Origin: Bradyrhizobium sp. 149 | Lineage (GTDB): Bacteria > Pseudomonadota > Alphaproteobacteria > Rhizobiales > Xanthobacteraceae | Reading direction: 5' to 3' | NCBI RefSeq assembly: GCF_023073915.1 | Contig: NZ_JADPKK010000022.1 | Span: forward strand, 124,001-188,000 | DNA: 64,000 bases | Shown here: in pieces, positions 2,559 through 12,817 of the stretch | How the letters are laid out: each line of letters starts with the position of its first letter | How positions within the stretch are numbered: the stretch's first letter is position 1 | The notes under the pieces: generated by a model | Databases searched by the model: none | What the model saw: the letters and a program-made list of their open reading frames with translations, nothing else | Told to the model about the DNA's origin: nothing | Position numbers and translations under genes: made by a program

Positions 2559-4232
<1,674 letters not shown>

Positions 4233-8403: not shown

Positions 8404-8769
8404 GTGAGCGATTTCGACCAGATGGGAATTGTCGTCGACTGGGTGGATGCCTGCAGGAAGGGCGACCTCGCGACGCTACTCGATCTCTATGCGGACGACG
8501 CCCAGGTCGAATGCACGTGTAACGGTACGCAGCGTTATCGCGGCCGGAGCGAGCTCGAAGCCTATTGGCAGCCCCGCCTCAGCGCTTTCTCGTCGGCAGG
8601 TTTCGGGCTGGAGGAAATCCATCCAGCGCCCGACGGCGTCGATCTCGAATATTCCGTCGCCGGTGCGCTGCGCATCCGCGCCTCGTTTTGTTTCAGCCCG
8701 GACGGCAAGATCCGCACCACGCTGTGCGAGCCGGCGCGACAGAACGCACACCTTGGGTGTGCGTGCTAA
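8404..8769 (+). CDS. NTF2/SnoaL-like domain protein
   Basis: 121 residues from a GTG start. The fold pattern is that of small SnoaL/NTF2-like proteins: a helical start (VDWVDACRKGDLATLLDLYADDAQVEC), a YRGRSELEAYW stretch, and a beta-rich end. No catalytic residues can be assigned. Its stop overlaps by four bases with the stop of the convergent histidine kinase gene. A role is not evident. Confidence 0.7.
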   Translation: MSDFDQMGIVVDWVDACRKGDLATLLDLYADDAQVECTCNGTQRYRGRSELEAYWQPRLSAFSSAGFGLEEIHPAPDGVDLEYSVAGALRIRASFCFSPDGKIRTTLCEPARQNAHLGCAC

Positions 8770-10103
8770 TCGTTGACCGGCGCCTCACGTGCCGGATCGA
8801 CCGGAAGGCGGCAGCGCACATAGGTCCGGTCGTCCACACGCAGCAGTGACAGCGATCCGCTGAGCGCGCGCACGCGCTCGTGCATGCCGGTCAAGCCACG
8901 GCCGAACAAATTGCCCTCGGGAAAGCCGCCGCCGTCGTCGGAAATCTCGATAACGAGGGCGTCTGCGACGACTGTCGCCCGCACATGCGCATTGCTGGCG
9001 CTGGCGTGGCGCAGCACGTTGGTCAGCGCCTCCTGAATCACGCGATAAACGGTCTGTGCCAGCGGCCCGTCGATCCCGTTGAGATCCGGATCAATCGTGT
9101 CCGTCAGGCCGATATACGGTGCCTGCTTGCGAAACTTACGGAGCAGCGTCTGCAAACTGGTCTCCAGACCCAATTCCTCGATGTAGAGCGGTCGCAACCT
9201 GTCGAGGATGCGGCGGTTGGTCTGCTGCAGCGCCTCGACCGATTGCAACACCTCCTGTGCCGAACTGCCGGGATTTCCCGCCGAAGGCGAGGCCTCGACC
9301 AATGCGATCGTGCCGGCGCGGATACTGAACAGCAGCGGGCCGAGTTCGTCATGCAGTTCGCGCGCGAGATCGCGCCGCTCGTCATCCTGGAGTGACACCA
9401 GGCGATGCAGCAGGTCGCGATTGTCCTGGCTCAATTGCGCCAGCGTTTCGGCCAGCGCATTGGCCTCCTCGCAGCTTTGCCGGATTTCCGGCGGTCCTCC
9501 GACCGGGATCGGCGTTGCGTAGTCGCCGCGTCGTATCCGTGTGAGCCCTTCGCCGAGATCTTGCAGCGGGCGCAGGGCCGATCCCGCGAAAACATAGGCA
9601 ATGGTGCCGGTGAGCACCATCAGCACGGCAACGAGGCTGGTCAGCGCCAGAAAGCCGATCCACTTCTCGAATAGGTCGGCCGACAGGTCGGGCAGGAAGA
9701 CGAGATCGCCGACACGCTGGCCGTCGATCGTCACCGGAGCTGCCGTGTCCATGTCCGGGATGGTGAGCAGGTCGACAAACCATTGCGGCACGCCATGCGG
9801 CTTGCGCAGGCCGTCCCTCGCTGAGGACGCGGGACCCGTCTCCGCGGCACGGAATTGGATATCGGAGGTGTCCAGAGAATGGACAAAGGCGTCGAGCGTT
9901 TGCCGCGGATCGCTCGAGGTGCGCAGGGTGTTATTGAGCGCGGCGGCAACCGTCCGGATCGAACGCCGCCCCGGCTCGTTCTCGTCGGCCAGTTGGTCGG
10001 TCGCGAAGGTTTGGAGCAGCACGCCGCTCATGATCAGCGCGGCGAGGAAGCTCATGCCGAGCGGCAGAAACAGTTGGGTTCTGAACGAGAGGCGTTTCCA
10101 CAT
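8766..10103 (-). CDS. Membrane sensor histidine kinase, NarX/UhpB-type (HisKA_3)
   Basis: 445 residues from the ATG at 10103; an ATG seven codons upstream (10124) is possible. Two membrane spans (about 13-33 and 172-196) enclose a periplasmic domain of about 135 residues with no recognised ligand motif. A HAMP-like linker (LRPLQDLGEGLTRIRRGDY) follows. The phosphoacceptor His is in ARELHDELG. The ATPase boxes are QEALTNVLRHA, DDGGGFP and GRGLTGMHERV. The neighbouring divergent NarL-type regulator is the obvious partner, with only about 85 bases between the starts. Confidence 0.9.
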   Translation of the reverse strand: MWKRLSFRTQLFLPLGMSFLAALIMSGVLLQTFATDQLADENEPGRRSIRTVAAALNNTLRTSSDPRQTLDAFVHSLDTSDIQFRAAETGPASSARDGLRKPHGVPQWFVDLLTIPDMDTAAPVTIDGQRVGDLVFLPDLSADLFEKWIGFLALTSLVAVLMVLTGTIAYVFAGSALRPLQDLGEGLTRIRRGDYATPIPVGGPPEIRQSCEEANALAETLAQLSQDNRDLLHRLVSLQDDERRDLARELHDELGPLLFSIRAGTIALVEASPSAGNPGSSAQEVLQSVEALQQTNRRILDRLRPLYIEELGLETSLQTLLRKFRKQAPYIGLTDTIDPDLNGIDGPLAQTVYRVIQEALTNVLRHASASNAHVRATVVADALVIEISDDGGGFPEGNLFGRGLTGMHERVRALSGSLSLLRVDDRTYVRCRLPVDPAREAPVND

Positions 10104-10188
10104 TAGGTCAATTCTAACGCGCATCGGGCGGATTTGCTCTTTCCATTTGTTCCCGTCGGTTTATGAGTCGAAAAACTAGAGAGTTACA

Positions 10189-10833
10189 ATGCAAGATACT
10201 GCCAAGCCGGCGACCCGCGTCCTGATTGTCGACGACCATCCCGTGGTGCTGTCCGGTTGCCGCACCCTGTTCGCCTCCGACCATTCGATCCGGATCGACG
10301 AGGCGACCGACGCCAAATCCGGGCATCGCGCCTATGTCAGCAAGCGGCCCGACGTCACGGTGATCGACATCAGCCTGCCCGACGTCTCCGGCTTTGAACT
10401 GATGAGACGCATTCGCAAGGACGATCCCGACGCCAAGATCATCATGTTCAGCATGAACGACGATCCGGCCTTCGTGGTGCGGGCGGTCGAGCTTGGGGCG
10501 CAGGGTTACGTCTCCAAGGGCGACGATCCCCGGATCCTGCTCAAGGCGGTGCGCAAGGTAGTTGCGGGCGACAATTTCATCTCACCGCAGCTCGCAGAAG
10601 CCGTGACGTTCTCAGGCGCGGCGATCAAGGCCAATCCGGCCTCGCAGATGACGCCGCGGGAGCTCGAGATTCTCCGCCTGCTGGGGCGAGGCGACAAGAT
10701 CGTCGAGGTCGCCGAGGCACTCGGTATCTCCTACAAGACCGTCGCCAACACCACGTCCCTGCTCAAGCAGAAGCTTGGCGCCAAGAACCATTCCGACCTC
10801 ATCCGGATCGCGGTGGAAATCGGGATGAACTGA
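10189..10833 (+). CDS. NarL/FixJ-type response regulator
   Basis: 214 residues. Receiver domain with the acidic pair in IVDDHP (residues 15-16), phosphoacceptor Asp60 in VIDISLP and the conserved Lys in YVSKGD. The C-terminal LuxR-type helix-turn-helix (about 150-210) contains TPRELEILRLLGRG and the recognition region SYKTVANTTSLLKQKL. It is divergent from the HisKA_3 kinase at 8766-10103, which probably phosphorylates it. Target genes are unknown; the shared 85-base intergenic region is a plausible autoregulatory site. Confidence 0.92.
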   Translation: MQDTAKPATRVLIVDDHPVVLSGCRTLFASDHSIRIDEATDAKSGHRAYVSKRPDVTVIDISLPDVSGFELMRRIRKDDPDAKIIMFSMNDDPAFVVRAVELGAQGYVSKGDDPRILLKAVRKVVAGDNFISPQLAEAVTFSGAAIKANPASQMTPRELEILRLLGRGDKIVEVAEALGISYKTVANTTSLLKQKLGAKNHSDLIRIAVEIGMN

Positions 10834-11063
10834 CGTCCCGGGCGCCGAACCGGCTGCTCCAGGATGCTGCCGGTTCGGCGGGGCGGACCGGTCTCGGCGC
10901 TCAGCCGGGCAATGCATGGATAGCGCCGACACCATCCGCCGACACAATGGGTCCAGTCGGCGTTCGTTCCCTGAACTGTCCGGTCATTCGGGAATTAATG
11001 GCAATGCGCGGCGAGGCTGGCCTCAAAAATGTCTGTCGGAGCCGAAACGCGTCGGGAAAAATA

Positions 11064-11088
11064 GGAACATTTTCTCGCCCGCACCGTT
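11064..11088 (+). promoter_or_regulatory. EcfG-type (general stress response) promoter
   Basis: GGAAC at 11064-11068, exactly 16 bases, then CGTT at 11085-11088. This is an exact match to the GGAAC-N16/17-CGTT pattern of sigma EcfG promoters in alphaproteobacteria, including Bradyrhizobium. Start of transcription is expected near 11095, about 140 bases before a strong terminator and 300 before the thrC start. Confidence 0.7.
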
Positions 11089-11094
11089 TTGGCC

Positions 11095-11237
11095 CTTGAC
11101 GATTTCGTGACAGGCGACGAAAGCTTGCGCAAACAGTTTTAGCGGGGTCAGCCACCCCAAAGAGGCAAACTGGTCTGCACACATCAACGACAGACCTTCC
11201 AAGAGAAAGGGCTGCGGCATTGCCGCAGCCCTTTTTC
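11095..11237 (+). ncRNA. Candidate stress-induced small RNA (possible GsrN counterpart)
   Basis: Predicted transcript of about 140 bases between the EcfG-type promoter and a terminator. It contains three hairpins: GGGGT/ACCCC (11144-11158), GGTCTG/CAGACC (11172-11196) and the 13-bp terminator stem (11206-11234). Between the second and third lies CCTTCC (11195-11200); most of it is unpaired and it is complementary to a Shine-Dalgarno sequence, as expected for an mRNA-binding RNA. There is no ATG-initiated ORF; the only reading frame is an 11-codon GTG ORF without a ribosome site. Caulobacter GsrN is a known small RNA with the same type of promoter; equivalence is inference. Confidence 0.55.
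11206..11237 (+). terminator. Strong rho-independent terminator upstream of thrC
   Basis: Perfect 13-bp stem, AAAGGGCTGCGGC (11206-11218) with GCCGCAGCCCTTT (11222-11234), a three-base loop ATT, and a T tract. No protein gene ends nearby: the response regulator stops 370 bases earlier. It therefore most likely ends the small RNA. Confidence 0.85.
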
Positions 11238-11398
11238 GTTGGCAGCCCTTTTCGCTGGATCGGCAGGGGCGCGAAGCGGTTTCCCGATGCCGCAAAACAC
11301 TTTATGGTGGCCCAAAGCCTCTGGCTGTTAACAAGTAGTTTCGTAAAATCAAAGGCTTGCGGATCGAGCTCAAGCTCGGCCGGCCTTTGGAGGGCAGT

Positions 11399-12817
11399 TT
11401 GACTCGTTATATCTCGACCCGGGGCGAGGCCCCCGAACTCGGCTTCTGCGACGTGATGCTGACCGGGCTCGCCCGCGACGGCGGCCTGTATGTGCCGGCC
11501 GCCTGGCCGCAACTCTCGACGAACGCCATCGCCGGCTTCTTCGGTCGTCCCTATTGGGAGGTCGCGGTCGAGGTGATCCGCCCCTTCGCCGTCGGCGAGA
11601 TCTCGGACGCCGAGCTCGGCCGCATGGCGAACGAGGCCTACGCCACCTTCCGCCATCCCGCGGTGGTGCCGCTGCGCCAGATGGCGCCGCACCAGTTCGT
11701 GCTGGAGCTGTTCCACGGTCCGACGCTCGCCTTCAAGGACGTGGCGATGCAGCTGATCTCGCGGCTGATGGATCATGTGCTCGCCAAGCGTGGCCAGCGC
11801 ACCACCATCGTGGTCGCGACCTCCGGCGACACCGGCGGTGCTGCGGTTGACGCGTTCGCAGGGCTCGAAAATGTCGATCTCATCGTGCTGTTTCCGCACG
11901 GCCGTATCTCCGAGGTGCAGCGGCGGATGATGACGACCACGGGCGCGGCCAACGTCCATGCGCTCGCCGTCGAGGGCAATTTCGACGATTGCCAGGCCCT
12001 CGTGAAGGCGATGTTCAACAACCATCGCTTCCGGGATGCGACGTCGCTGTCCGGCGTCAATTCCATCAATTGGGCGCGCATCGTCGCCCAAGTGGTCTAC
12101 TATTTCACCTCTGCCGTTGCCGTTGGCGCACCGGCGCGCGCGGTGGACTTCGTCGTGCCGACGGGTAATTTCGGCGACATCTTTGCCGGCTATGTCGCCA
12201 AGCGCATGGGTCTTCCGGTGCGGACCCTGAGCATCGCCGCCAACGTCAACGACATCCTGGCGCGCACGCTCAAGACCGGGATCTACGAGGTGCGCGAGGT
12301 CCACGCGACGGCGTCGCCGTCGATGGACATCCAGATCTCCTCGAACTTCGAGCGGCTGCTGTTCGAGGCTGGCCGGCGTGATGCCGCCGGCGTGCGCCGT
12401 CTGATGGATTCGCTGAAGCAGTCGGGGCGCTTCGTGCTGCCCGATGCGACGCTGGCCGCGATCCGCGAGGAATTCGACGCAGGCCGCGCCGACGAAACCG
12501 AGACCGCGGCCGCGATCCGCGCCGCCTGGCGCGAGGCGGGCGAGCTGGTCGATCCCCACACCGCGGTCGCGCTTGCGGTCGCCGACCGCGACACCACCGA
12601 CACGACGGTGCCCAGCATCGTGCTATCCACCGCCCACCCGGCCAAATTCCCCGATGCGGTCGAAGCTGCCTGCGGCCAGCGGCCGCAACTGCCGGCCTGG
12701 CTCGATGGTCTGATGACCAAATCCGAACACATGAAGGTGATGAAGAACGACCAGGCCGAGGTCGAGCGGTTCGTGCTGTCGGTCAGCCGTGCCGCAAAAC
12801 AGGGAGTTGCCGGATGA
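11399..12817 (+). CDS. thrC: Threonine synthase
   Basis: 472 residues starting at TTG (11399), chosen because GGAGGG lies just upstream and the product then begins MTRYISTRGE as in other proteobacterial ThrC proteins. It converts O-phosphohomoserine to threonine with pyridoxal phosphate. The PLP lysine is Lys113 in HGPTLAFKDVAMQ, and the phosphate-binding TSGDTGGAA loop is visible. Length is normal for the long proteobacterial type. It overlaps the M16 peptidase gene by four bases (ATGA), the usual alphaproteobacterial pairing. Confidence 0.96.
   Translation: MTRYISTRGEAPELGFCDVMLTGLARDGGLYVPAAWPQLSTNAIAGFFGRPYWEVAVEVIRPFAVGEISDAELGRMANEAYATFRHPAVVPLRQMAPHQFVLELFHGPTLAFKDVAMQLISRLMDHVLAKRGQRTTIVVATSGDTGGAAVDAFAGLENVDLIVLFPHGRISEVQRRMMTTTGAANVHALAVEGNFDDCQALVKAMFNNHRFRDATSLSGVNSINWARIVAQVVYYFTSAVAVGAPARAVDFVVPTGNFGDIFAGYVAKRMGLPVRTLSIAANVNDILARTLKTGIYEVREVHATASPSMDIQISSNFERLLFEAGRRDAAGVRRLMDSLKQSGRFVLPDATLAAIREEFDAGRADETETAAAIRAAWREAGELVDPHTAVALAVADRDTTDTTVPSIVLSTAHPAKFPDAVEAACGQRPQLPAWLDGLMTKSEHMKVMKNDQAEVERFVLSVSRAAKQGVAG

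Follow-up and report, generated by a model that had tools for sequence, protein, structure and literature searches.

A predicted general-stress small RNA upstream of thrC in Bradyrhizobium, apparently the remnant of a gene for a small exported protein

Upstream of thrC, roughly half of the Bradyrhizobium species examined carry a promoter of the EcfG type followed by a predicted non-coding RNA of ~143 bases. Comparing this locus across the genus from the window, a 64-kb stretch of Bradyrhizobium DNA, we found that the RNA appears to be the remnant of a gene for a small exported protein that was read from the same type of promoter and lost its coding part. How small RNA genes are born in bacteria is a largely open question, and here one genus holds at one address, behind the same stress promoter, forms that range from the intact gene of the stress protein, through a pseudogene and a remnant of the coding sequence, to a conserved RNA that stands alone, so that the passage from mRNA to small RNA is open to testing with engineered swaps. 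Two further leads come from the comparison: a stress RNA, so far undescribed, in symbionts of agronomic importance, and a family of small exported proteins, equally undescribed, whose genes stand behind EcfG-type promoters.

The predicted RNA and its promoter

The promoter motif is read directly in the window as GGAAC (11064-11068), a 16-nt spacer and CGTT (11085-11088), pointing into the RNA segment as a first-pass annotation made from the letters alone had stated. Taken alone, the motif could be there by chance, as the window has three matches to GGAAC-N15..18-CGTT where 1.73 would be expected; what lifts the promoter reading is conservation across homologs. GGAAC is exact in 89 of 91 distinct homologous sequences, the exceptions being one GGAGC and one GGAAT, and the promoter is thus kept in related genomes, on which the annotation had made its reading depend. 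The -10 element reads CGTT in 60, GGTT in 22, AGTT in 3 and TGTT in 2 of the 87 sequences parsed by the pattern used. The two -35 variants, in L188 (B. diazoefficiens SZCCT0138) and L064, are natural promoter mutants. The unit has the GGAAC-N16/17-CGTT promoter of the EcfG regulon, and the genome encodes a PhyR-NepR-EcfG system (NepR at G000:C17:111731, an adjoining sigma gene and a phyR-like gene); the RNA is probably under EcfG control. A housekeeping promoter at CTTGAC was ruled out, there being no sigma-70 match. The element CGGGAAAAA, just 5' of the -35 box, equals the promoter in conservation whether the locus holds the RNA or the ORF, and a similar sequence stands at a few paralogs; it may be the site of a second regulator.

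Table 1. Features at the thrC-upstream locus (window positions)
Feature	Position	Strand	Basis or remark
NarL-type response regulator gene	10189..10833	+	Pfam Response_reg and GerE; constant upstream neighbour defining the slot
Conserved element CGGGAAAAA	11053..11061	+	0.98 conserved, 91 homologs
EcfG-type promoter GGAAC-N16-CGTT	11064..11088	+	motif and conservation; same as the published sigma-EcfG1 consensus (PMC3892343)
Predicted stand-alone small RNA, ~143 nt	11094..11236	+	promoter and terminator; homologs in the same place in ~100 genomes; folding energy -58.5 kcal/mol, z -4.7
Predicted RNA 5' end CTTGACGAT	11095..11103	+	near invariant
Hairpin GGTCTG/CAGACC	11172..11196	+	paired in 31/31 sequences, U-G/G-U changes
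UUCCAAGAGA, unpaired, candidate pairing region	11197..11206	+	0.97 conserved
Rho-independent terminator, 13-bp stem and T-run	11206..11236	+	100% paired; four pairs changed on both sides
thrC, separate downstream gene	11399..12817	+	TTG start, SD GGAGG

The RNA would be transcribed from this promoter, starting at ~11093-11096 as placed from the promoter position. A consensus fold of 60 homologs contains two helices only, the GGTCTG/CAGACC hairpin and the terminator, whose 13-bp stem (11206-11218 with 11222-11234) is perfect and ends 160 nt before thrC, as the annotation had it. Its count of three hairpins is only partly right: the 5' hairpin and the GGGGTC hairpin are absent from the consensus fold and are hardly, if at all, more stable than expected (mean z +0.02 and -0.56). 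With other lineages added, both conserved helices pair in 100% of cells. Covariation is confined to the terminator, with compensatory changes at four pairs, and the upstream hairpin shows wobble changes only. The annotation also described CCTTCC (11195-11200) as mostly unpaired; the letters are correct, but the leading CC pairs to close the hairpin, which leaves UUCCAAGAGA as the free part. The CUUG of CTTGACGAT could pair with CAAG at 11200-11203, a pairing seen in single-sequence folds only. In Rfam (release 15), no window match exceeded the gathering score; sub-threshold matches are mainly terminator-like, and those at a relaxed threshold were dismissed as mostly terminator look-alikes. Since no protein gene ends at the terminator in this genome, as the annotation claimed, and comparative evidence supports it well, we retain its reading of an independent RNA behind a general-stress promoter.

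A search with positions 11040-11240 found homologs in ~14 of the 25 nearest genomes, and the 3' part matches 108 of 196 Bradyrhizobium genomes, a count that takes in a few loci with the protein gene or its remnant, or with a match to the terminator alone. Wherever a strong match was checked in its retrieved locus, it adjoins the NarL-type response-regulator gene and, where the contig reaches, thrC. A DNA pattern scan added 69 stretches; almost every one comes from a named Bradyrhizobium record, with strains labelled japonicum, diazoefficiens, liaoningense and canariense among them. L163, in a record titled Frankia sp. RB7, has a typical Bradyrhizobium copy of the locus, and this record is probably mislabelled or contaminated. 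The regulator, 95-100% identical across most of the window's clade, lies on the plus strand divergent from a minus-strand histidine kinase gene (8766-10833 for the pair).

Descent from a gene for a small exported protein

Elsewhere in Bradyrhizobium, beyond the window clade, the slot that follows this response-regulator gene contains CGGGAAAAA-GGAAC-N16/17-GTT, an SD-bearing leader and an ORF such as MKKFLMIGALAFAATSVAGTAMAAEYYVVRDSTTKKCTVVETKPTSTTTTIVDNGIFKTKTEAETGMKTTKVCTE, a gene for a ~75-aa exported protein ending ...KVCTE. The stop codon of these protein-coding versions falls inside the loop of the same hairpin and is followed by CCTTCCAGGAGA and the terminator. Promoter, ORF and a near-identical 3' module occur together in L070, L084, L083, L208, L211, L213, L217-L220 and L228. 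The 5' arm of the hairpin, GGTCTGCAC, represents the former Lys-Val-Cys-Thr coding end of the lost protein, with homologous codons in the protein-coding relatives and in paralogs. Paralogs elsewhere have the GTCTGCAC / AAGGTCTGCAC codons, lack the CAGACC arm and have different 3' ends; since they share the codons without that arm, the hairpin 5' arm was probably coding sequence first. Moreover, G194, which branches basally in the window clade, retains the reading ATGAAGGTCTGCAC. The paralogs and G194 thus argue for the polarity from protein to RNA. With 3' UTR-derived small RNAs of the CpxQ type the RNA shares a sequence that goes back to the tail of a protein-coding gene and is conserved along with the terminator.

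The ~75-aa protein has an apparent signal peptide, with no Pfam match and no NCBIfam match above cut-off; of 47 genera sampled across the bacterial family, 19 have members of its protein family. An EcfG-type box lies within 120 nt in 35 of 53 distinct upstream regions of the family, compared with 4 of 212 control windows; in many members (AAxYYVV...KVCTxx; L105, L087-L135) the promoter stands 50-75 nt upstream. One paralog is left in the window's own genome (L105, G000:C13:578852-579064). In the 3' UTR of L084, near 3377-3420 (G012, oriented), a 12-base unit (CCAAGAGAAAGT-like) is tandemly repeated over the candidate pairing region.

Mapping these versions on a midpoint-rooted tree of the response regulator plus thrC (1260 nt, 48 genomes), we found that the window clade (UFBoot 100) is separate from a second group with intact ORFs. 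Within this second group, whose deeper branches are weakly supported, G162, G203, G204, G222, G251 and G281 form a clade (100) adjacent to the ORF-bearing G217 (100); all six keep the 3' module but have a missing or broken ORF. Five of them, G162, G203, G204, G251 and G281, match the promoter pattern used, and G222 does not. In G145 and G192, the ORF was lost by a separate deletion, with promoter and 3' end kept. G020 holds a pseudogene, a frame-broken copy whose start region and Met-Lys-Val codons are still readable, and neither ORF nor module was found in G023, G196, G198 and G219. By sequence comparison, the ORF is gone, with promoter and 3' end retained, in three lineages, those of the window, of G162 and its relatives, and of G145/G192, and the coding part was apparently lost several times; a count of three or more losses depends on the reading of G145/G192 and on the protein-first polarity, for which the paralogs argue. 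Several species have a second small conserved ORF of ~70 aa (MxxPDIVExAxxRAWSVYLL...) between the response regulator and the remnant, for example L081:1604-1816, L083:1430-1642 (oriented) and L076, in some cases preceded by GGGAAAAA-GGCAAC; it has no Pfam or NCBIfam match.

The remnant could be a decaying leftover, still transcribed and functionless, persisting because too little time has passed or because its terminator insulates the neighbouring genes. ORF remnants and the G020 pseudogene exist, and some lineages have lost the whole unit, which speaks for this reading. However, loss of the promoter would then be expected, and the conservation profile of the 91 sequences is uneven. By mean majority-base fraction, the promoter region reaches 0.98 (CGGGAAAA), 0.99 (GGAACAT) and 0.92 (CGTTTT), and the RNA reaches 0.94 (CTTGACGAT), 0.95 (hairpin), 0.97 (TTCCAAGAG) and 0.92 (terminator). 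Values fall to 0.78 in the central part of the RNA, 0.64 in the spacer of the promoter, 0.52 upstream of the unit and 0.43 past the terminator. The intergenic DNA around the unit is thus near random in the window clade, whereas the -35 box, UUCCAAGAGA and the hairpin, at 0.95-0.99, exceed even the 0.85 average of thrC fourfold sites whose first two bases are invariant. Because the RNA of the window clade goes back to a single event, its conservation there counts as one evolutionary case. On balance, we regard a functionless leftover as unlikely.

An mRNA for a micro-protein, starting at a GTG/ATG near 11108 with an 11-codon frame (VTGDESLRKQF), is a very doubtful reading: GTG or ATG is kept in 79 of 87 sequences, but the start is lost in the other 8, the ~14-nt leader has no Shine-Dalgarno sequence, the frame runs anywhere from 8 to 43 codons, and second codon positions are nearly as variable as third.

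Possible function and known stress RNAs

The reading we favour, and think probable, is an EcfG-induced base-pairing small RNA derived in place from the mRNA of the ~75-aa exported protein, with promoter and 3' end kept. The ancestor would have been an EcfG-driven mRNA for this protein, of which nearly all coding sequence was then lost, leaving the promoter, the hairpin across the old stop codon, the free UUCCAAGAGA and the terminator. Under stress the ~143-nt RNA would be made, its U-tail probably stabilised by Hfq, and the free UUCCAAGAGA, perhaps with the conserved 5' end CUUGACGAU, would pair with G-rich sites resembling Shine-Dalgarno sequences and so repress or modulate mRNAs. Having been retained through the loss of the protein, UUCCAAGAGA is the strongest candidate for the contact, and an anti-Shine-Dalgarno role for it is a reasonable idea. 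Part of the 3' conservation may reflect efficient termination alone; the main argument against terminator quality as the whole explanation is that GGTCTGCAC is still conserved after coding ended. Whether the ancestral general-stress mRNA already had two functions, an exported protein and a regulatory 3' RNA, of which several Bradyrhizobium lineages kept only the RNA by selection, we judge an even question; if so, an mRNA was turned into a pure small RNA gene in place.

No mRNA target was identified among the translation starts of the window, the thrC leaders and the sites for CTCTTGGAAGG in the window's own genome. Apart from the RNA itself, this perfect complement occurs there three times, never at a convincing translation start. 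Pairing of CCUUCCAAG with CUUUGGAGGG of thrC (-13.0 kcal/mol) is among the best of 96 window starts and is present in all 109 RNA-bearing thrC leaders examined. We rejected thrC as a specific target, and the pairing is not specific evidence, because the matching leader also occurs in species that lack the module or carry it kilobases away from thrC. The position of the unit, 160 nt upstream of thrC with a terminator at its end, might suggest a regulatory leader (attenuator) of that gene. This is highly improbable: the same module lies ~6, 10 and 1.4 kb from thrC in G281, G001 and G249, where thrC retains its own conserved upstream sequence (TCAAAGG...CCTTTGGAGGG), and there is no threonine-rich leader peptide.

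The annotation had suggested a counterpart of Caulobacter GsrN and believed that GsrN loci lie near a thrC/M16 peptidase. Neither idea held up. Predicted Bradyrhizobium GsrN genes are next to ecfG/nepR/phyR and not near thrC/M16 (PMC5869019), and in this genome the RNA is on contig C1 and the GSR locus on C17, the similarity between them being limited to a 15-base stretch over the promoter-like GGAACTTTTTCTCG. The 12 kb around nepR contain no exact EcfG-type promoter, and the predicted GsrN was not located there. Both RNAs are small, have a general-stress sigma promoter and expose a C-containing unpaired region facing G-rich targets. In contrast to the RNA described here, GsrN (~100 nt) pairs through a 5' C-rich single-stranded loop and is cleaved to a stable 5' isoform (PMC5869019); our RNA has CTTGACGAT as its conserved 5' end, its first CCC varies, and conservation is highest in its 3' half. 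Direct descent from GsrN, for which promoter type and size would speak, is thus extremely unlikely given the mismatch in locus, loop and sequence and the origin from a local protein gene near thrC.

Other known RNAs resemble parts of this picture. ReC64 of Rhizobium etli (PMC3892343) is likewise non-coding and directly EcfG-controlled via GGAAC-N16-CGTT, but lies downstream of phyR-tcrY; we set it beside our RNA by description and not by sequence. BjsR1-BjsR10 of B. japonicum USDA 110 (PMC5082802) are Bradyrhizobium-specific intergenic small RNAs too, with RpoD/RpoN promoters or none, and the main text describes none upstream of thrC or under EcfG. In the literature searched, largely open-access main texts without supplements, no RNA is described at this address. 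The nearest mechanistic precedent for the ancestor would be CpxQ (PMC9438474), which comes from the 3' end of the stress mRNA cpxP, coding for a small exported protein, and has a conserved 3' module and terminator. The mRNA from which CpxQ is cut still encodes CpxP, whereas the RNA upstream of thrC has its own EcfG-type promoter and no ORF left in this genome, so that processing from an mRNA is not required; by analogy, the protein-coding relatives may represent a CpxQ-like stage.
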